DNA from: Arcobacter sp. CECT 8986
GTDB taxonomy: Bacteria > Campylobacterota > Campylobacteria > Campylobacterales > Arcobacteraceae
NCBI RefSeq assembly: GCF_004116725.1
Contig: NZ_PDKG01000001.1
Location: forward strand, 372,001-436,000
Length of the DNA: 64,000 nucleotides
Reading direction: 5' to 3'
In this document: positions 16,447 to 26,691 of the stretch, piece by piece
Numbering within the stretch: position 1 is the first letter of the stretch
Layout of the letters: every line of letters begins with the position of its first letter
Program-made: the position numbers and the translations under genes
Notes under the pieces: generated by a model
Told to the model about the DNA's origin: nothing
What the model saw: only the letters and a program-made list of their open reading frames with translations
Database searches by the model: none

Positions 16447-17778
16447 TTAATCCTTTGATAAATATCTTGAAGAGTATTCAAATAGTAGTTCTTCATCAAA
16501 ATTATCACCAACTATTGTTACACCAAAAGGAAGACTATTTTTTCTAAATCCAGCTGGAAGTGCAATAGCACTTAAATCAAGAAGATTCATAAAATTTGTA
16601 TAATAACCAAGATTTGTATTAAGTTGTATTGGATTTGCATTTACCTCATCAATTTTATATATTGTTCCAGTTGTAGGAGTTAAAATAAAATCAAACTTTT
16701 CTAATACTTCATCAACATATTTTCTATTTTTTTTCAAAATATACTCTGATTCAAAATAGTTTACTGCATCTATTTTTTCACCACTTTTTACAATAGTTCC
16801 AACTGTTTTATTTACAGCTTCTTCATGATTTGTAATCATATCTTTTATTGCAATATATCTTTCAGTTACCCAAGGTCCACTATAAAGTAAATTTGCACTT
16901 TCAATAAATGGTTCAAAATCTATTTCAACTACTTTTGCACCTAAAGACTCAAACTTTTCAACTGCTTTTATATATAAATTTTTTGCTTCTTCATCACCAA
17001 AAAATTCCAAATTCTCTTTTTTAGGTATCGCAAAAGTAAACTCTTTTTTTGCTTTTTTATTTGATGGAGTATAAACTCTACTATAAATATCTTCTTTGTC
17101 ATATTTATTTGCCAAATTAAAAACAGTTTTTGCTTCACTTAATGTCTTAGCAAAAATAGTAACACAATCCAAACTTCTACAAGCTGGAACAACTCCAGAT
17201 GTACTAATAACTCCTTTGGTTGCTTTTACTCCAATTAAGTTATTAAAAGCAGCTGGAACTCTTCCTGAACCTGCTGTATCAGTTCCTAAAGAAAAACTTG
17301 CCATTTCAAGTGCAACACTAACAGCACTTCCAGAACTAGAACCACCTGAAATATACTCTTTATTTATAGAGTTTCTACACTCACCATAATCACTTCTAGT
17401 TCCAACAAGTCCTGTTGCAAATTGGTCTAGGTTTGTTTTTCCTATTGGAATTGCACCTGCTTCTATTAATTTTTTTACTACAAATGCTGATTCATTTGCT
17501 ATATATTTATACTCTTTACAAGCAGCAGTAGTAGGAATATTTTCTAAGTTTATATTATCTTTTATAGCAAAAGGAATACCATATAAAGGTAAATCTTCAA
17601 TATTTTTATCTTTTAAATTTTCTATATAAGAAGATATTTCATCATTATTTAAAGTATAAATCCAAATATTATAATCTTTTGTTTGCTCTATTTTTTCAAA
17701 AATAGAAGAGATTACCTCTTCTACTTTAAGCTCACCACTTAGATATTTTTCTCTTAGAAGTTCAATATTTAAATTCAT
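16447..17778 (-). CDS. atzF: allophanate hydrolase, amidase domain
   Basis: A 443-residue amidase-signature enzyme. The catalytic triad is visible as K73 (PFAIKDNI), the cis-Ser in GGSSSGS (about 147-148) and nucleophile S171 in TDTAGSGR. The sequence GVVPACRSLDCVTIFAK is characteristic of the allophanate hydrolase branch. It hydrolyses allophanate after the carboxylase and deiminase steps. It overlaps the carboxylase gene by 4 bases. The usual C-terminal domain is on the next gene. Confidence 0.9.
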   Translation of the reverse strand: MNLNIELLREKYLSGELKVEEVISSIFEKIEQTKDYNIWIYTLNNDEISSYIENLKDKNIEDLPLYGIPFAIKDNINLENIPTTAACKEYKYIANESAFVVKKLIEAGAIPIGKTNLDQFATGLVGTRSDYGECRNSINKEYISGGSSSGSAVSVALEMASFSLGTDTAGSGRVPAAFNNLIGVKATKGVISTSGVVPACRSLDCVTIFAKTLSEAKTVFNLANKYDKEDIYSRVYTPSNKKAKKEFTFAIPKKENLEFFGDEEAKNLYIKAVEKFESLGAKVVEIDFEPFIESANLLYSGPWVTERYIAIKDMITNHEEAVNKTVGTIVKSGEKIDAVNYFESEYILKKNRKYVDEVLEKFDFILTPTTGTIYKIDEVNANPIQLNTNLGYYTNFMNLLDLSAIALPAGFRKNSLPFGVTIVGDNFDEELLFEYSSRYLSKD

Positions 17779-20700
17779 TTTTCATCCTTTTTTATAACCA
17801 CTAAAATATCTCCACTTTCTATATTATCACCCTCTTTATATAATATTTTAGTAATAGTTCCAGATAATTCAGCTTCAATTTCTACTTCCATTTTCATACT
17901 TTCAAGTACTACTATTACATCAGAAGCTTTTACTTTATCACCAACTTTTACTTGCATTTTCCATATATTTCCAGACATAATAGATTCAACTGCTTCTTCA
18001 TCATCACCTAATTCTATCTCATCTTTTACTTCATGATGTGCATCTTGAGCTTTAAAACTATCTAAGCCTTTCTCTTTCCACATATTTTTTTCATCATTGA
18101 AAGCTTTTTGTCTCATTTGATTAAATTCATCAATTTGAGTTTTTTTAGATTCAAGGAATTTTTTATACTCTTTTAGATTAAAGCTACCCTCTTCTATTTT
18201 CAATGAATACTTTCCAAATAAAAACTTACTTCTTATATCCATTAATTCATCATGACTCACTGGATAAAACTTAACAACATCAAAAAATCTAAGTAACCAA
18301 GGTTTAGTAAACTCTTTTGTAGTTTTAAAACTATTCCACATTTGTAAAGTTCTACCAAAAAGTTGATAACCTCCTGGCCCTTCCATTCCATATACACACA
18401 TATAAGCTCCACCAATACCAACAGCATTTTGTGGAGTCCAAGTCCTTGCTGGATTATATTTTGTAGTTACAAATCTATGTGTTGGGTCAAGTGGCGTTGC
18501 AACAGGTGCTCCTAAATAAACATCTCCTAATCCCATAACTAAATAATCAGCATCAAAAATTGTATTTTTTACACTATCAATACTATTTATTCCATTTATT
18601 CTTCTAATAAATTCTATATTACTAGGACACCAAGGAGCATCTTTTCTAACCCCTTGTTGATACTTTTTAATAGCTAGTTGTATTCCCTCATCATTCCAAG
18701 ATAGAGGTAAATAAACTGTTCTTGATTTAACTTCTAAATCATTTATACCATTTAATGAGTTTAATGCTTCATCAAGTAAACTAAGTAATTCATCTCTACT
18801 TATTTTTTTAGGATTAAAGTGTATTTGTAAAGACCTAATTCCAGGTGTTAAATCAACTAATCCTTCAATATTTTTATCTTCATAAAAACTCATTAAAGCA
18901 TGAATAAAAAATCTAAGTTCAATATCAAGTTTTAACTCCCCTGCTTCAATTAAGATAAATTTATCTCCTGAAACCCTTACAGTTATATCAATACCTAACT
19001 CATCAAATTTTGCTTGTTTTATAATAGGAGTTTTAGATTCTATTTCATCTTTTATTGAATTAAAATCTTTTATATTTGGTAAAGTAGTATTATTTTCAAT
19101 TGCACGTTCATACTCTTTTGTAAAATTATCTGCATCTTCAATAGACAATGGAATAAATTTTATTTTATCTCCAGCTTTTAGCTGTCCAACTTTATATAAT
19201 TCACTTGATATTACAGTAGCAGGACAAACAAATCCACCTAAACTTGGTCCATCGGGTCCTAATATAATTGGCATATCTCCTGTAAAATCTATTGTTCCAA
19301 AAGCGTATGCATTATCATGAATATTTGAAGGGTGAAGCCCAGCATCACCTCCATCTTCCCTTGCCCATTTTGGAGCTGGTCCTATTAGTCTTACTCCTGT
19401 TCTACTTGAGTTAAAGTGAACTTCCCAAGATGAGTTAAAAAACTCTTTTATATCTTCATTTGTAAAAAAGTCAGGACTTCCATGAGGGCCATAAACTACA
19501 CCAATTTCCCACTCATTTGTAAGAGAAGTAGATACTTTTAAAGTATTAAATTCTTGAGTTTTTGAAGCACTATATGATAATACATCTCCAGCTTTTAATG
19601 CTCTTCCAGAATGCCCTCCAAATTCACCTAAAGTAAATGTTGATGAACTTCCTAAAAATTTAGCCACATCAAAACCACCTTGAATAGCTAAATAAGTTCT
19701 ATTTCCATTTCCAATAACTTTTTTAAACTCTAAAATATCATTTTCATTTACACTAATTGGCTCATACATATTTATCTCTTTGCCATTTAGTTTTGCTTGC
19801 ATATTTGCTCCACCAAATGCAATAATACTTTTTTGTCTAAACTTAAATGTAGCTCCTATAAAAGTCATCTCTATAAATGAAGCATCTTCACTATTTTTTA
19901 ATAATTTATTTAAAAGTCTTGGAGTTAAACTATCCATTGCTCCAGATGGTGGAATACCAACTGCCCAATATCCATGTCTTGCTGGATAGTCTTGAATTGT
20001 TGTCATTGTTCCTGATTTTAAAATATCAACTTTATAAGGTTTATACTCAAAGCTATCTAATACTTTTGTATAAAATGTTGCATCTTTAAAAAACTCTTGT
20101 TTACTAATTTGACTAAGATAAGTTAAGTTTGATTCTATTCCATAAACTCTACTTTTTTCTAAAACCTCTTGTAGTTTATTTATACTTTCACTTCTTGTAT
20201 CTTCATATGTAATTAGTTTTGCTAATAATGGATCATAAAAAGCACTTACTTCACATCCATCATCAATCCAAGTATCACATCTTATATCACTTGGAAATTC
20301 CACTTTTGTAATAAGACCTGTGCTAGGTTGAAAGTTTTTAGAAGCATCTTCTGCATAAACTCTTACTTCAATAGCATGACCTTTTGGATTGTGCTTATAC
20401 TCTAATAAATCACTATTATCACCAGCTGCTATTTTTATCATCCACTCAACTAAATCTACATTACAAACTTTTTCTGTAACACCATGCTCTACTTGAAGTC
20501 TTGTATTTACTTCAAGAAAATAGAACTCTTGTGTATTTGAATCATAAATATACTCAACAGTTCCAGCACTTTTATAGTTAACTGCTTTTGCAAGTTTAAA
20601 AGAGCTTTCATAAAGTTTTTCTCTTATCTCATCACTTAAATTAGGAGCAGGTGTCTCTTCAATTACTTTTTGATTTCTTCTTTGAATAGAACAATCTCTC

Positions 20701-21374
20701 TCTCCTAATGTTTTTACATTTCCTAACCCATCACCAAATATCTGAACTTCTATATGTCTTGCTTTTTCTATATATTTTTCTAAAAATACTCCACTATTAC
20801 TAAAGTTATTTCCAGCTAATTTAATAACATTATCATAAGCTTCTTCTAATTGCTCTTTTGAAAAACAAAGTTTCATTCCTATTCCGCCACCACCAGCAGT
20901 ACTTTTAAGCATCACTGGATAGCCAATTTCATCAGCTATTTTTACTGCTTCTTCTAAACTATTTAATAGTTCACTTCCTTCAAGTAATGGAACATTATTT
21001 TCTTTTGCAATTTTTCTTGCAGTATGTTTTAATCCAAAATCTTCAATCTGTTTTGAAGTTGGTCCTATAAATACAATACCGTTTTCTTCACATTTTTTTA
21101 CAAATTCAACATTTTCACTTAAAAATCCATATCCAGGATGAATAGCATCAATTTCATACTCTTTTGAAATCTCTAATATTTTATTTGTATCTAAATATGA
21201 TTCACTTAATACGTTTGAATTTAAAGCAACACTAATATCAGCATTCATCACAAAAGATGCATTTTTATCTGCATCACTATATATAGCAACAGATGTTATT
21301 CCTAGTTTTTTTAATGTTTTAATAATTCTATTAGCTATTTCACCACGATTGGCGATTAATACCTTTTTGAACAT
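17775..21374 (-). CDS. biotin-dependent urea/guanidine carboxylase
   Basis: 1199 residues. Order of domains: biotin carboxylase (about 1-450, with KSTAGGGGIGMKLC and EVNTRLQVEHGVTE), then a KipA/KipI-like carboxyltransferase region (about 460-1050), then a biotinyl domain with VLESMKMEVE, biotin lysine K1161. This is the urea carboxylase architecture. Guanidine riboswitch elements lie upstream, and DUF1989 deiminase genes and allophanate hydrolase lie alongside. Guanidine, carboxylated to carboxyguanidine, is therefore the more likely main substrate. The urea versus guanidine choice depends on active-site residues I could not align. Confidence 0.9.
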   Translation of the reverse strand: MFKKVLIANRGEIANRIIKTLKKLGITSVAIYSDADKNASFVMNADISVALNSNVLSESYLDTNKILEISKEYEIDAIHPGYGFLSENVEFVKKCEENGIVFIGPTSKQIEDFGLKHTARKIAKENNVPLLEGSELLNSLEEAVKIADEIGYPVMLKSTAGGGGIGMKLCFSKEQLEEAYDNVIKLAGNNFSNSGVFLEKYIEKARHIEVQIFGDGLGNVKTLGERDCSIQRRNQKVIEETPAPNLSDEIREKLYESSFKLAKAVNYKSAGTVEYIYDSNTQEFYFLEVNTRLQVEHGVTEKVCNVDLVEWMIKIAAGDNSDLLEYKHNPKGHAIEVRVYAEDASKNFQPSTGLITKVEFPSDIRCDTWIDDGCEVSAFYDPLLAKLITYEDTRSESINKLQEVLEKSRVYGIESNLTYLSQISKQEFFKDATFYTKVLDSFEYKPYKVDILKSGTMTTIQDYPARHGYWAVGIPPSGAMDSLTPRLLNKLLKNSEDASFIEMTFIGATFKFRQKSIIAFGGANMQAKLNGKEINMYEPISVNENDILEFKKVIGNGNRTYLAIQGGFDVAKFLGSSSTFTLGEFGGHSGRALKAGDVLSYSASKTQEFNTLKVSTSLTNEWEIGVVYGPHGSPDFFTNEDIKEFFNSSWEVHFNSSRTGVRLIGPAPKWAREDGGDAGLHPSNIHDNAYAFGTIDFTGDMPIILGPDGPSLGGFVCPATVISSELYKVGQLKAGDKIKFIPLSIEDADNFTKEYERAIENNTTLPNIKDFNSIKDEIESKTPIIKQAKFDELGIDITVRVSGDKFILIEAGELKLDIELRFFIHALMSFYEDKNIEGLVDLTPGIRSLQIHFNPKKISRDELLSLLDEALNSLNGINDLEVKSRTVYLPLSWNDEGIQLAIKKYQQGVRKDAPWCPSNIEFIRRINGINSIDSVKNTIFDADYLVMGLGDVYLGAPVATPLDPTHRFVTTKYNPARTWTPQNAVGIGGAYMCVYGMEGPGGYQLFGRTLQMWNSFKTTKEFTKPWLLRFFDVVKFYPVSHDELMDIRSKFLFGKYSLKIEEGSFNLKEYKKFLESKKTQIDEFNQMRQKAFNDEKNMWKEKGLDSFKAQDAHHEVKDEIELGDDEEAVESIMSGNIWKMQVKVGDKVKASDVIVVLESMKMEVEIEAELSGTITKILYKEGDNIESGDILVVIKKDEK

Positions 21375-21398
21375 TTAATATCCTTAGAAATTTATTTG

Positions 21399-21446
21399 TG
21401 GGCCGTCCCAAGTGATAATATATTTTATAAGTCGTCTCATAAAATA
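21399..21446 (-). ncRNA. guanidine-II (mini-ykkC) riboswitch candidate
   Basis: Read on the minus strand, two hairpins stand 10 bases apart. P1 (21446-21421) is an 11-base stem with one G-U pair and loop ACGA. P2 (21410-21399) is TGGG-ACGG-CCCA. Paired stem-loops, both with ACGR tetraloops, just before a ribosome-binding site are the definition of the guanidine-II class. The AAGGA for the carboxylase gene follows at 21385-21381. Likely acts on translation initiation of the carboxylase. Confidence 0.82.
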
Positions 21447-21465
21447 AAAAGAGTAAGGCTCTTTT
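21447..21465 (-). terminator. hairpin after the DUF1989 genes, just before the guanidine-II element
   Basis: On the minus strand AAAAGAG-CCTTA-CTCTTTT forms a 7-base stem followed by a T-rich run. That run is also the 5' arm of the guanidine-II P1 stem, so terminator and riboswitch share bases. Confidence 0.55.
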
Positions 21466-21485
21466 AAACCTGTGTTGTTAGTTTA

Positions 21486-22106
21486 TTAATTATCCCAAAT
21501 AATTAATTGAATAGGTGTTGGGTTATATCCATTACAAGGATTATTTAATTGAGGACAATTTGAAATTAAAACTAATGTATCCATTTGTGCTTGCATTTCA
21601 ATATAATCTCCTGGTTTAGAAATACCATCAACAATTGCTAAATGCCCATCTTCTTCAACTGGAACATTCATAAAAAAGTTAATATTATTTGTAATATCTT
21701 TTGGATTCATCTCTAATTGAGAAATAACAGTTAAAAAATTATCTCTACATGAGTGCATATATTTTTTATTTAATCCAAATCTAACAGAGTTACTCTCAGC
21801 ACTACAATGTCCACCTAAAGTATCATGATTTCCACAAGTATCTTCTACTATTTCCATCAATACATTATCATCACTACTTAAAAGTTTTGTTCCTGTTGTA
21901 ATAAAAATACTACCTTGTTCTCTAATTGTATCAGTTGCACTATATCTATCATTTACATTATTTGCATTATAAAAAAGTGTATCAACTGCTTGACAACCTT
22001 CTAAATCAACTATTCTAAAAGTTTGACCTTTTTTTATAACTCTTCCCCAAGGAAGTCCTGATGGTAATTTTTCATTATAAATTGCATTTTCTATATTTTT
22101 TGACAT
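21486..22106 (-). CDS. DUF1989 protein, carboxyguanidine deiminase subunit with metal site
   Basis: 206 residues of the 'urea carboxylase-associated' DUF1989 family. In guanidine-degrading bacteria two such proteins (CgdA and CgdB) form the carboxyguanidine deiminase that yields allophanate. This copy holds a Cys/His cluster, C91, H94, H100 and C101 in EDTCGNHDTLGGHCSAESN, that looks like the metal and catalytic site. It lies 9 bases after its paralogue, which lacks the cluster. Which of the two is CgdA or CgdB cannot be settled by eye. Confidence 0.85.
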   Translation of the reverse strand: MSKNIENAIYNEKLPSGLPWGRVIKKGQTFRIVDLEGCQAVDTLFYNANNVNDRYSATDTIREQGSIFITTGTKLLSSDDNVLMEIVEDTCGNHDTLGGHCSAESNSVRFGLNKKYMHSCRDNFLTVISQLEMNPKDITNNINFFMNVPVEEDGHLAIVDGISKPGDYIEMQAQMDTLVLISNCPQLNNPCNGYNPTPIQLIIWDN

Positions 22107-22115
22107 CTTAAATCC

Positions 22116-22838
22116 TTACACAAAATATCTATTAGTATTAATAAAGCCTCTTTTAGCTTCTTCTGAATAATCAATATAATCTTCATCTTTGATTTCAACA
22201 CTTTCAAAAACAGTAATCTCAACATCACTTGGATTATAAACTCCACTTTTGTCCATTGCATGTGGTGTATTAGATAAAATAAGTAAAATATCCATATGAG
22301 CAGTCAACTCAATATAATCACCCTCTTTTGCAGTTCTTTCATTTAAAACTAATTTTGAACCATCTTTAACATCAACTTTTCTAAATAAATTAAGCCCTTC
22401 TATTAGGTCTTTTTTTGTCATTCCATATTTTCCAAGTTCTATTAAAAAGTTCTCTTTATCAGATTTGTGATATCCGTTTCTACAACTTTGATAAGTAGCT
22501 TCACCACCAAAGTTTTCTTTGATAACTCTTTCATTACTAATTCCACCTAAAACATCTAATAATCCATCAGTTGTATCATCAGTAATAGCAAATAAAACTC
22601 TTCCCATTTCAGATAAAAGAACTTTTCCTTTACCTAAAAAAGCATTCCATTGAACTTTTACAGTATCAGCACTGTTAAATCTCTCTGCTGTATTAAAAGC
22701 GTTATAAAACATCGCACTTAAACTTGCATTTTCACCTAAAGCTTTTAATCTTACAGTTTGTCCTCTTTTTATAATTTTTGACCATTTTACACTTGAAGGT
22801 AATACTTCATTTAAAACTACATTATCACTTTTTATCAT
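22116..22838 (-). CDS. DUF1989 protein, carboxyguanidine deiminase second subunit
   Basis: 240 residues, same family as the next gene, beginning VLPSSVKWSKIIKRGQTVRL. At the place of the Cys/His cluster of the paralogue it has TDDTTDGLLDVLGGISNE, so the obvious metal ligands are absent. That suggests a structural or regulatory partner in a heteromer. It follows the ABC ATPase gene by 22 bases and is part of the guanidine-I controlled operon. Confidence 0.83.
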   Translation of the reverse strand: MIKSDNVVLNEVLPSSVKWSKIIKRGQTVRLKALGENASLSAMFYNAFNTAERFNSADTVKVQWNAFLGKGKVLLSEMGRVLFAITDDTTDGLLDVLGGISNERVIKENFGGEATYQSCRNGYHKSDKENFLIELGKYGMTKKDLIEGLNLFRKVDVKDGSKLVLNERTAKEGDYIELTAHMDILLILSNTPHAMDKSGVYNPSDVEITVFESVEIKDEDYIDYSEEAKRGFINTNRYFV

Positions 22839-22860
22839 TTTTTACTCCTATTAAATATCC

Positions 22861-23601
22861 TTATTTCAAGGAATTTATACCTTTATGTTTTGCATCTATA
22901 TCATTTACAATTGTTGAACCATATCTATTTGGATACTCTTCATCAACTCTTACTTTATCAAATACCAATACTCTTGTTCCTAGTTTAAAAGCTTCACTTA
23001 TATCGTGAGTAACCATAACAACTCCAAAATTTAATTTTGAGTGTATATCCAAAAGTAACTCATGCATATCCATACTAATTCCAGGGTCTAATGCTCCAAA
23101 AGGTTCATCCAAAAGTAATAGTTTTGGTTTTTTAACTAAAGATTGTGCAATAGATAATCTTTGTTTCATACCTCCACTTAATTCATGTGGATATTTATCT
23201 TTTGAATCTATAAGACCAACAGCTTTTAATATCTCTTGTGCTTTTTCATAAGCTTGCTTTTTTTTAGCACCAAAAAGTTTTCCTAATAGTTTAGATTCTT
23301 CAAACTCTAAACCAATAATCACATTATCAATAACACTCAAATGATTTAAAGTTGAATATCTTTGAAAAACTATTCCTCTTTCATCACTTGGTTCATTTGG
23401 ATAATCTTCACCCTCAAAATATAATCTTCCTTTAGATGGGTTTTCAACTCCCAAAAGCATTCTTAAAAATGTTGTTTTTCCACATCCAGATGGACCAACT
23501 AAAGTACAGAACTCTCCACTATCCATAGAAAAATTCAAATTTTCAAGAATAATATTTTCTCCATACTCTTTCCATATTCTTTTTGCTTCAACTAATTTCA
23601 T
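22861..23601 (-). CDS. ABC transporter ATP-binding protein (guanidine/urea importer)
   Basis: About 246 residues. Walker A is GPSGCGKTT, the signature is LSGGMKQR, Walker B is LLLLDEPFGAL and the switch histidine lies in VMVTHDISEA. Similar to NitT/TauT-type ATPases found with urea carboxylases. Two ATG codons lie in tandem at 23604 and 23601; AAAGGAG is better spaced for the second. The permease stop codon TGA overlaps the first ATG, so translation is coupled. Confidence 0.9.
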   Translation of the reverse strand: MKLVEAKRIWKEYGENIILENLNFSMDSGEFCTLVGPSGCGKTTFLRMLLGVENPSKGRLYFEGEDYPNEPSDERGIVFQRYSTLNHLSVIDNVIIGLEFEESKLLGKLFGAKKKQAYEKAQEILKAVGLIDSKDKYPHELSGGMKQRLSIAQSLVKKPKLLLLDEPFGALDPGISMDMHELLLDIHSKLNFGVVMVTHDISEAFKLGTRVLVFDKVRVDEEYPNRYGSTIVNDIDAKHKGINSLK

Positions 23602-23603
23602 CA

Positions 23604-24416
23604 TCACTCCTTTCCAAACCAAGGAAATAGCCTTTGATTAAATTGTCTTAAGATAAAATCAATTAAAAAAGCTAAAATAGTAATCCAAATTACATATGGT
23701 AAAATCACATCCATTGCTAAATATCTTCTTACTAAAAATATCCTATATCCTAATCCTTCAGTTGCTGCAATCGCTTCTGCTGAGATTAAAAATATCCATG
23801 CTGTTCCTAAAGTCAATCTAATTGCATCAATTAGCCTTGGTAAAACTTGAGGTACAATTACTCTTGTTATTATCTGCCAAGTAGAAGCACCTAATGTTTG
23901 AACTTTTATTATCTGTTCACTTGGTATCTCTTTTACTCTTTGATAAATTTCTCTTGTCATAATAGGTGCAACACCTAAAATAATCAAAACAACTTTTGAA
24001 ACTTCTCCTAAACCAAACACAATAAATAATATTGGTAACATAGCCATAGTTGGGACTAAAGATAAAAACCAAATCATTGGTGATAAAGTTGAAGTAACAT
24101 AAGGAATAACTCCTATTGAAATACCTATCATTAGTGCAAATAAAGCACTAATGCCAACACCCATTGCCAATCTTTTCAAACTTGAAAGAGTATCATTTAG
24201 TAAAATATACTCTCCACTTCTTTTACTTTTTTCAAAAGCCATTCTACTCATAGAATCTATACACTTCTCAACAGAAGGTAGTAGTTTATCATTTGGGTTT
24301 TGAGCTAATCTTGCATTTGATGAGCTTACATAAACTACTACTATTAGTAAAAAAGGAAGAACTCCTAAAAAAAGGTTTATACTCTTTGAAGGGATTTGAT
24401 TTATTAACCTTTTCAT
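23604..24416 (-). CDS. ABC transporter permease (guanidine/urea importer)
   Basis: 270 residues with about six membrane segments, of the BPD transport superfamily (SsuC/TauC type). The cytoplasmic coupling loop is QIIKVQTLGASTWQIITRVIVPQVLPRLIDAIR, here holding the EAA-like motif. It lies between binding protein and ATPase genes. Predicted to import guanidine or a related small cation, judged from the riboswitch and the catabolic genes. Ends in TGA. Confidence 0.9.
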   Translation of the reverse strand: MKRLINQIPSKSINLFLGVLPFLLIVVVYVSSSNARLAQNPNDKLLPSVEKCIDSMSRMAFEKSKRSGEYILLNDTLSSLKRLAMGVGISALFALMIGISIGVIPYVTSTLSPMIWFLSLVPTMAMLPILFIVFGLGEVSKVVLIILGVAPIMTREIYQRVKEIPSEQIIKVQTLGASTWQIITRVIVPQVLPRLIDAIRLTLGTAWIFLISAEAIAATEGLGYRIFLVRRYLAMDVILPYVIWITILAFLIDFILRQFNQRLFPWFGKE

Positions 24417-24428
24417 TAATTATCCTAT

Positions 24429-25508
24429 TTAAAGCTTACCGTCCGCAGCCATTTTCATATATGTATCATCAAATCTTAATTTGATATTTCCTTTATCTCC
24501 TATAACTTTACCTTTAGGAAATTCAATTCCTACAAAACCATAATCACTTGCACCTTCTCCATAAAGACCATGATTAAATGAAAATTTTGCAACAAATTCC
24601 ATTGTTTTCATAATTTGTTCGCTATTATTAAATTTAACAGCACTTGCTGGAGTATAGAACATATTTGTAGTTTTTAGTTGGTCTTCAAATCCTGGTAAAT
24701 CTGTTCCTGAAGCTTTTGCCATAAGTGTTTTAAACTCATTTGCTTTTTTTGTATTTGCATTCATTAAACTCATCATTTCATACCAAGCACCAGTTAATGC
24801 TTTTCCTAAAGCTGGATTATCTTTTAAAGTTTTTGTATTTACTACCATTAAGTCAATAATTTCTCCAGGAATTTCTGAACTATTAAATAAGTTTTTAGCT
24901 TTAGGCATTGCTAAAATTTGACTAACTTGAGGTTTCCATGTAACAACAGAAGAAACTTGAGGAGTAGTATAAGCTGAAACAATATCAGCATCAGAAGTAT
25001 TTACAACAGTTATATCTTTTTCACTAAGACCATTTTTTTCTAATGCTCTTGCTAATAAATAGTGAGAGATAGATAACTCAACTAAATTGATGTTTGTACC
25101 TTTTAAATCTGCAACTTTTTTAGCATCTTTAGAAATAATTACATCATTTCCATTTGAGAAATCCCCAATAATTAATGCAGTAGAATCAACTCCACCAGCT
25201 GCTGGAATCCCTAATGCATCAGTATTTGCCATAACACATCCATCAAACTCACCAGCGCTATATTGATTTATAGATTCAATATAATCATTAATTTGAACAA
25301 TATCAATATTTATACCGTATTTTTTAGCCCATTTATCGATTATTTTTTGAGAATCAATAACATCCCAAGGCATCCAACCTACATAAATACTCCAAGCAAC
25401 TTTGAAGTCTTTCTTAGTTTGTCCAAAAAGTGAAGTTGTAGAAATTCCTACAAATAAAGCTGTTATAGCCAATAACTTGAAAAGTTTTGTACTAGTTGAT
25501 AGTTTCAT
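24429..25508 (-). CDS. ABC transporter substrate-binding protein (guanidine/urea importer)
   Basis: 359 residues. I place the start at the ATG at 25508 because AGGAGAGAC stands just upstream and the protein then begins with a clear signal peptide (MKLSTSTKLFKLLAITALF, ending near SLFGQ). A longer frame to 25541 would run into the riboswitch. The mature protein is a NitT/TauT-like periplasmic binding protein (VAWSIYVGWMPWDVI near the N-terminus, aromatic residues that could hold a planar cation). First gene of the operon. Confidence 0.9.
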   Translation of the reverse strand: MKLSTSTKLFKLLAITALFVGISTTSLFGQTKKDFKVAWSIYVGWMPWDVIDSQKIIDKWAKKYGINIDIVQINDYIESINQYSAGEFDGCVMANTDALGIPAAGGVDSTALIIGDFSNGNDVIISKDAKKVADLKGTNINLVELSISHYLLARALEKNGLSEKDITVVNTSDADIVSAYTTPQVSSVVTWKPQVSQILAMPKAKNLFNSSEIPGEIIDLMVVNTKTLKDNPALGKALTGAWYEMMSLMNANTKKANEFKTLMAKASGTDLPGFEDQLKTTNMFYTPASAVKFNNSEQIMKTMEFVAKFSFNHGLYGEGASDYGFVGIEFPKGKVIGDKGNIKLRFDDTYMKMAADGKL

Positions 25509-25540
25509 CTTAGTCTCTCCTAAATAGAATTTAAAACACA

Positions 25541-25690
25541 CTAGGAGGCATTAAACCTCCCGGGCTTTTATCCCTCCGTGTAACTCTATTTAAGAGTCGG
25601 TAACTCTCGGACCAGTCATTTAAAAAAATCGGAACCCTAGATACCTTTGTAGTTATACTGAGGCTAACGCCTCTCTAATATGTTTTTGTT
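25541..25690 (-). ncRNA. guanidine-I (ykkC) riboswitch
   Basis: On the minus strand three conserved blocks of the ykkC class occur in order: CTAGGGTTCCG (25640-25630), ACTGGTCCGAGAG (25616-25604) and a long 3' block at 25581-25556 that begins ACACGGAGGG and contains AAAAGCCCGGGAGG. This matches the guanidine-I aptamer almost base for base. At the 3' end GGAGG and CCTCC (25560-25544) can form a competing hairpin, a likely expression platform. A 5' hairpin GAGGC-GTTA-GCCTC precedes the aptamer. It controls the importer and deiminase genes. Confidence 0.95.
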
Positions 25691-25771: not shown

Positions 25772-26092
25772 TTAGTTGCTAACATATTTTAAGCCAATAA
25801 TAGAAGAGATAAGAGTAAATAAGAAAAAAAGTCTTAAAAAACTTGCTGGCTCTTTATAATATAAAATTCCAACAATAATAGTTCCAAAAGCACCAATTCC
25901 TGTCCATATTGCATATGCTGTTCCTATTGGTATTGATTGTATTGCTTTTGTAAGAGAATAAAAGCTTCCAGCTGCAAATAGTAAAAATATTATTGTAGGG
26001 AATACTCTTGTGAAATTATCTGTCAATTTTAACATTGAAGCAAAACCAACTTCTAAAATCCCTGCTAAAATCAAATACATCCATGCTGTCAT
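25772..26092 (-). CDS. gdx: SMR family guanidinium exporter (Gdx/SugE type)
   Basis: 106 residues with four membrane helices. The essential glutamate is E14 (LAGILEVGF). Residues 57-70, GTAYAIWTGIGAFG, match the Gdx/SugE subtype rather than the EmrE-like drug pumps. Gdx proteins exchange guanidinium for protons. The gene sits directly upstream of the guanidine-I leader on the same strand, and its promoter side has two palindromes shared with a divergent MarR gene. Together with the importer this makes a complete guanidine uptake, breakdown and relief system. Confidence 0.87.
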   Translation of the reverse strand: MTAWMYLILAGILEVGFASMLKLTDNFTRVFPTIIFLLFAAGSFYSLTKAIQSIPIGTAYAIWTGIGAFGTIIVGILYYKEPASFLRLFFLFTLISSIIGLKYVSN

Positions 26093-26205: not shown

Positions 26206-26691
26206 ATGAATATAAAACAACTAAAAGAAAACCTTGAAAATATAAAAATACAAACACCAGATATTTATAAAGATAGTATGAATATAACAATTCCTTTTTT
26301 CCTATTATCAAGTAAATTATTTGAACATGGTGAAAAAATGTTAAAAGAAAAGTACAATCTAAATCAAACAGAGCTTGATATTTTATCACTTGTATATTAT
26401 TCAACTGATGAAAAATATAGAATTACTCCTACAAAACTATATGATATGATGCTTTTTTCTTCAGGAGGAATGACAAAAGCACTAAAAAAACTTGAAAGCA
26501 AAAATTATATAAAAAGAGTTGAAAATGAAAATGACAAAAGAAGTAAATTAGTTGAGTTAACTTCATTGGGAAAAGAAATTGCAGTAAAAGCTATAAAAGA
26601 TATCGTTGAGTTTGAAGATAAATCTTTTTCAAAATTAGATAAACAAGAACAACAGCTTTTAAGCAAACTACTATTAAAAGCACTTTATTAA
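26206..26691 (+). CDS. MarR family transcriptional regulator
   Basis: A 161-residue winged-helix regulator with recognition region ITPTKLYDMMLFSSGGMTKAL and wing RVENENDKRSKLVEL. It is a paralogue of the MarR protein at 3623-4114; both have an extended N-terminal helix (NIKIQTPDIYKDS here). It is divergent from gdx with two identical palindromes between them, so it most likely represses both. The inducer may be guanidine or another cation; this is inference from position only. Confidence 0.9.
   Translation: MNIKQLKENLENIKIQTPDIYKDSMNITIPFFLLSSKLFEHGEKMLKEKYNLNQTELDILSLVYYSTDEKYRITPTKLYDMMLFSSGGMTKALKKLESKNYIKRVENENDKRSKLVELTSLGKEIAVKAIKDIVEFEDKSFSKLDKQEQQLLSKLLLKALY

Follow-up and report, generated by a model that had tools for sequence, protein, structure and literature searches.

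Two guanidine riboswitches of different classes in a probable guanidine-assimilation operon of Arcobacter sp. CECT 8986

A 64-kb stretch of the Arcobacter sp. CECT 8986 genome (positions 372,001 to 436,000 of contig NZ_PDKG01000001.1; "the window", whose own numbering is used throughout) carries a cluster of genes for the import and degradation of guanidine. The cluster includes two riboswitch elements: a guanidine-I (ykkC) element in the leader of the importer and deiminase genes, and a guanidine-II (mini-ykkC) element directly before the carboxylase gene. The minus strand carries both elements and every gene of the cluster, and the gaps between the genes are short. The elements are separated by about 4.1 kb, in agreement with the 4 kb given in a first-pass annotation made from the letters of this DNA. 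We consider it very likely that the cluster is a guanidine-assimilation operon in which guanidine-I acts on transcription and guanidine-II on translation of the carboxylase.

The enzyme content of the cluster is directly established. The first gene encodes the substrate-binding protein of an ABC importer (24429..25508; TIGR03427, 541.5 bits, cut-off 333.9). The open reading frame (ORF) as listed begins with a GTG at 25541, and an ATG at 25508 is preceded by an AGGAG site. The permease gene follows (23604..24416), with TauC/SsuC-like matches under the named cut-offs, and then the ATPase gene (22861..23622), with matches to many ABC ATPase families, of which none among the 25 listed exceeds its cut-off. 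Two DUF1989 proteins, UAAP1 (cgdA, 22116..22838; TIGR03425, 258.5 bits) and UAAP2 (cgdB, 21486..22106; TIGR03424, 341.5 bits), both score above cut-off, and we take them to be the carboxyguanidine deiminase subunits CgdA and CgdB. Behind them lie gca, encoding a guanidine carboxylase of 1199 amino acids (17775..21374; TIGR02712, a family named urea carboxylase, 1792.2 bits), and an allophanate hydrolase gene (16447..17778; TIGR02713, 567.4 bits, above cut-off). Carboxylase residue D696 aligns with N1330 of yeast urea amidolyase (5i8i), presumably the residue meant by the Asp/Asn rule for this enzyme family. According to that rule, Asp in place of Asn in the active site marks guanidine carboxylases (PMC12186494), and Asp is what the window's carboxylase has. 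The position of the UAAP1 and UAAP2 genes 5' of gca agrees with the gene order described in PMC12508155. A family scan of nine cluster and neighbouring proteins named none as the methylguanidine genes mgdH or mgdL. An SMR exporter gene (25772-26092) sits immediately upstream of the guanidine-I leader and shares its strand, and a MarR-type regulator gene (26206-26691, plus strand) diverges from it; a covariance-model search of the window found no riboswitch match before the SMR gene.

The guanidine-I aptamer (25555..25651) was identified by RF00442 over the whole length of the model (1-107 of 107) at 88.2 bits, against a gathering score of 63, which bears out its earlier placement in the importer/deiminase leader. 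This match, at 25651-25555, is the sole one above any cut-off within the window, and the whole genome gave one guanidine-I match in a covariance-model search. The gene directly 3' of the aptamer is that of the TIGR03427 substrate-binding protein, as fits a leader of guanidine uptake and degradation genes. A terminator-like scan and folding point to a hairpin (GGGAGG...CCTCC, 25543..25561) that overlaps the aptamer's 3' end and is followed by a loosely U-rich stretch; it is the probable expression platform. In folds read by eye, a hairpin using the aptamer's 3' GGGAG block was predicted in all 38 distinct guanidine-I leaders, taken from 32 DNA stretches, as is expected of a terminator competing with the aptamer. 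The stem letters of this hairpin are changed in some of the 38.

The guanidine-II element (21399-21446) is located in the cgdB-carboxylase gap, 24 nt 5' of the ATG at 21374. It consists of a stem-loop P1 (21421..21446) with 11 pairs, one of them G-U, and the loop ACGA at 21435-21432, and a stem-loop P2 (21399..21410) with 4 pairs and the loop ACGG at 21406-21403. A linker of 10 nt (21420-21411) joins the two, and the carboxylase ribosome site, AAGGA, follows at 21381..21385. The first-pass description of these two hairpins, their linker and their place before the ribosome site was exact. Each loop is closed by a G-C pair, as is characteristic of guanidine-II. RF01068 aligns end to end at 21443-21399 with 29.3 bits, at an E-value of 2.6e-4 in a 261-nt stretch; searched for in the whole genome it has an E-value of 6.4e-4, and no other match there reaches E <=0.001. 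Covariance matches, conservation and the covariation of P1 described below establish the two elements as guanidine-I and guanidine-II, as the first-pass annotation had named them, and we are nearly certain of both the class of the second element and its target gene, the carboxylase.

Conservation was followed in 104 Arcobacteraceae genomes, with guanidine-I counted at E <=0.01 and guanidine-II at E <=0.1. Guanidine-I was found in 11 of them and guanidine-II in at least 20, the latter being a lower bound, as the strict-filter search used skipped seven carboxylase-linked elements, the window's among them. Eighteen of these 20 guanidine-II matches precede SMR genes and two precede the carboxylase gene. 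The cgdB-carboxylase gap of the 11 guanidine-I genomes holds both ACGR loops in nine cases (not in G058 and G054). Among 397 genomes sampled from the phylum Campylobacterota, cgdB is present in 24; all 24 carry guanidine-I, and 22 carry the ACGR pair before the carboxylase gene (not G429 and G453). When the 24 phylum-sample clusters are taken together with eight family clusters chosen for having guanidine-I, 28 of the 32 retain the position of guanidine-II, both ACGR loops and stem P1 (21 distinct sequences), so that the expected conservation of both loops in relatives is confirmed. Infernal recovers all 28 gca-adjacent elements at E <=1, and in each of them P2 lies 19-28 nt from the start codon.

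Across the 21 distinct sequences P1 covaries, with 193 of 210 cells paired as compared to 153.6 +/- 3.7 (maximum 169) in 2000 shuffles; when the columns are slid by 1-2 positions, only 77-121 cells are paired. P1 thus shows the compensatory changes expected of a guanidine-II stem. P2 is nearly invariant, three G-C pairs being fixed and the fourth being C-G or U-A in 18 of 21. Both loops read ACGR in all 21 sequences, ACGR also being the rule used to locate them. In several clusters a gene for a metallo-beta-lactamase-fold protein lies between cgdB and the carboxylase gene (L078:5459-6241, minus strand, PF00753; L072:6846-7628, plus strand, and another in L039, both of like sequence), and guanidine-II still stands before the carboxylase gene.

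The layout was also sought outside the phylum. A scan by cgdB alignment yielded at least 80 named loci, which are not a census. A guanidine-I motif was found in 54 of the 80 listed loci by a motif rule rather than a covariance model, so that misses are likely. The RF01068 search covered the genomes of 76 of the 80 loci; the other four, all Campylobacterota, are L091, L098, L102 and L109, the last being a Sulfuricurvum without an ACGR pair by the motif rule. Infernal matches at E <=0.05 were mapped to loci by coordinates, and the mapped stretch had to hold two ACGR. Our own hairpin rules for guanidine-II proved too strict (9/75 and 14/75), missing Infernal matches, and the Infernal count is used here. 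Twenty matches lie directly before a carboxylase gene among the listed loci, 19 of them among the 70 listed non-Campylobacterota loci with a carboxylase start. Eleven of these 70 loci also have the guanidine-I motif and hence both classes; they include Vibrio albus, Vibrio breoganii, two Neptuniibacter, a Psychromonas, a Methylotenera and Plasticicumulans. Seven further guanidine-II matches, about 0.9 kb before cgdB (L093, L115, L116, L121, L155, L164 and L169), were not counted as carboxylase-adjacent and probably precede cgdA, as in L103. One Thiotrichales genome has a guanidine-II match before the carboxylase gene and an extra one downstream of it (L113:13280-13323, plus strand). Because it occurs in 11 of 70 listed loci of other groups, the two-class layout is neither rare nor limited to one group. 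The first-pass annotation had called it unusual, a judgement that does not stand given these loci, the 22 of 24 cgdB-bearing Campylobacterota with both classes, and its presence in print (in passages of PMC12186494 and PMC12508155).

The following scheme is proposed for the window. Judging from their sequences, both RNAs would bind guanidine. Guanidine on the guanidine-I aptamer probably prevents a terminator of which the aptamer's own 3' end would form part, and the importer genes, cgdA, cgdB and the genes behind them would then be transcribed. When guanidine is bound to guanidine-II, the two ACGR loops probably close on each other; this would free the ribosome site 14-18 nt behind P2 and raise translation of the carboxylase and perhaps, by coupling, of the allophanate hydrolase. 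We infer both switching steps, as well as a single transcript for all genes. The division into transcriptional guanidine-I and translational guanidine-II made by the first-pass annotation is plausible, and the same has been proposed for Vreelandella boliviensis (PMC12508155). Its claim that the second element gates the carboxylase independently is not borne out, since guanidine-II lies inside an apparent single transcription unit and would act on top of guanidine-I. In a 114-nt fold of the window RNA, P1 is kept, P2 is broken, and the ribosome site is paired with the linker and the 5' arm of P2. The predicted unpaired fraction of the site rises from 0.05 in the free fold to 0.46 with P1 and P2 imposed, which fits release of the ribosome site on guanidine binding.

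Several observations weigh against this scheme. The pattern scan places the guanidine-I terminator at chance (2 found, 2.4 expected in shuffles). The score of the window's guanidine-II element, 29.3 bits, is below the Rfam gathering score of 32, so that the covariance search proposed in the first-pass annotation succeeded by E-value and fell short by score. The second element is absent from 4 of the 32 clusters, and for the nine sequences of the family taken by themselves covariation is indecisive (its score was reached in 22 of 500 shuffles, and the number of paired cells in 81 of 500). A shorter fold of the window RNA gives the ribosome site another partner and little change (0.15 to 0.22). 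In 21 other distinct leaders, imposing P1 and P2 shifts the unpaired fraction of the site by at most 0.03, and in 18 of these the site is more than half unpaired anyway. The sequestering predicted for the window is thus dependent on fold length and is not predicted for the 21 others. Nor does the complementarity of the linker to the site region exceed that of shuffled sequences (mean z 0.12 for 22 distinct leaders, with sites picked by a simple rule whose pick is doubtful for G402 and G263), and linker-ribosome-site pairing was rejected as a general mechanism in the group; the z-score is lowest for the window itself (-2.25), followed by G302 (-1.58). Counting the window's own, 17 of the 28 elements next to gca fall short of the Rfam score. 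As only 11 of 28 reach 32 bits, and a gathering score is a search threshold rather than a biological feature, we hold that the Rfam cut-off is too strict for gca-linked elements, rather than that the window's element lies outside the family; the cut-off hides most carboxylase-linked copies here. We conclude that translational control by guanidine-II is likely, and that the exact alternative pairing of the ribosome site, as modelled, is unproven.

These observations also bear on other explanations of the second element. A score under the Rfam cut-off, the skipping of the element by the strict-filter search and the indecisive family covariation are what would be seen if it were a chance pair of ACGR hairpins. 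We give this next to no credence, as 28 of 32 clusters have the element in the same position, with a covarying stem, and a stricter ACGR motif has no match in 450 control stretches as compared to 14 of 75 at the real place. It is improbable, too, that the carboxylase gene has a promoter of its own and that guanidine-II is the leader of a separate transcript: the gene gaps are short and the cluster genes share one strand, promoter-like matches are at chance (60 versus 59.4), and the TATAAAAT-like stretch that lies upstream in several family SMR-linked guanidine-II leaders was not seen here by eye.

A different role for a genuine guanidine-II would be to act mainly on the mRNA between cgdB and the carboxylase gene, through Rho access, RNase processing or read-through past an extra hairpin, P0, and so set the ratio of carboxylase to deiminase. 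This would agree with the internal position of the element in the apparent transcription unit, the ribosome-site release that is not predicted in the 21 other leaders, and the abutment of P0 on P1 in many leaders. Guanidine-II is, however, called translational in PMC9094411 and PMC12186494, as far as their passages on it go, and the 19-28 nt between P2 and the start codon are as expected for control at the ribosome site; we regard an action mainly on the mRNA as rather unlikely and retain translational control of the carboxylase as the preferred reading.

P0 was found in the predicted fold of the window RNA, directly 5' of P1 (21448..21464; AAAGAG-CCTTA-CTCTTT, 6 bp). At an offset of 1 nt, the full set of 6 pairs is present in 16 of the 30 distinct leaders, and 23 have 5 or more; at control offsets of 5-30 nt, the full set is present in 0-4 of 30. 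The 30 derive from 33 leaders, five cgdA-linked elements among them, and are related and so not independent. The arms of P0 vary from lineage to lineage. Its support comes from its fixed position and not from single-leader folding z-scores, which are weak in this region (mean -0.81 over 31). The 3' side of P0 was tried and rejected as a specific partner of the leader's own ribosome site, its own pairing being weaker than that of leader swaps (permutation p 0.99), in a test of little power as the site hardly varies.

In five genomes (G458, G427, G286, G374 and G386; loci L071-L075) a second guanidine-II element, scoring 29.6-41.2 bits, stands before cgdA, giving three guanidine riboswitches per cluster. 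The five cases are not independent, G427 and G286, and likewise G374 and G386, being much alike in sequence. A literature search on three riboswitches in one guanidine operon found nothing. One of these clusters has a fatty-acid-desaturase-family gene after cgdB (L072:5822-6835, plus strand; PF00487), and the other four start alike behind cgdB, as judged by eye. By analogy to mgdH, this gene possibly encodes an oxidase for alkylated guanidines. It is conceivable, and we offer it tentatively, that the internal guanidine-II of Campylobacterota is a three-hairpin form in which P0 stacks on P1 and is part of the switch, replacing the linker as expression platform, and that some lineages stage the output of importer, deiminase and carboxylase via guanidine-I, guanidine-II before cgdA and guanidine-II before gca. 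P0 and the clusters with two guanidine-II elements offer a tangible starting point for asking why a single operon should sense one small molecule two or three times.

Guanidine-I was also found at other loci. A second guanidine-I leader is present in six genomes that belong to the order but not to the family (G215, G239, G368, G435, G429 and G453). In the two in which the ORF was looked at, this leader precedes an outer-membrane porin-like gene (L078:10693-11970 and L081:12324-13541, both minus strand), of the OprD family (PF03573) in L078 and judged by eye in L081; in the other genomes the gene appears to begin with similar letters. A literature search on guanidine riboswitches, or guanidine-I, and porins found no paper. 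In G090 a guanidine-I aptamer precedes a solute-binding protein gene of a different type (SBP_bac_8; L036:8908-9939, minus strand), which suggests that this gene is part of a second guanidine importer. Guanidine-I before an OprD-type porin, P0 abutting P1 and the second guanidine-II before cgdA were not found in print.

Within the family, the 18 SMR-gene guanidine-II leaders (L003-L020) resemble the window's in having two ACGR hairpins before the start codon. By eye, they differ in that P1 is mostly shorter and no P0 was seen in any of the 18; ten of the 18 have CCTCTTTACTCA in the linker, along with a stretch complementary to the ribosome site. We found no paper on guanidine riboswitches in Campylobacterota or epsilonproteobacteria in a search that left out most subscription papers, and the passages found on guanidine riboswitches and Arcobacter do not treat the window's locus. 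The two-class layout itself is given for three enterobacteria in a 2025 review (PMC12186494). As in the window, the clusters of Raoultella terrigena, Erwinia rhapontici and Klebsiella michiganensis have importer and deiminase genes under guanidine-I, with carboxylase and allophanate hydrolase genes directly downstream under guanidine-II; they belong to another phylum, and the likeness is one to the layout as that review describes it. For one such operon, that of V. boliviensis, a 2025 paper gives in-line probing results on both RNAs and describes the layout as "like in several other bacteria" (PMC12508155). The KD of the guanidine-I RNA is near 44 uM, with no methylguanidine binding in the tested range; that of the guanidine-II RNA is near 93 uM with guanidine and near 83 uM with methylguanidine. 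In common with the window's cluster, the V. boliviensis operon is preceded by guanidine-I, has guanidine-II in the gap between cgdB and gca and carries the same pathway genes; guanidine binding was measured for the V. boliviensis RNAs. That operon also has mgdH and mgdL for methylguanidine, neither of which was named in the scan of nine proteins of the window's cluster and its neighbourhood. The window's cluster is thus a member, in Arcobacteraceae, of an already published arrangement, and adds Campylobacterota to the groups known in print for the two-class layout.

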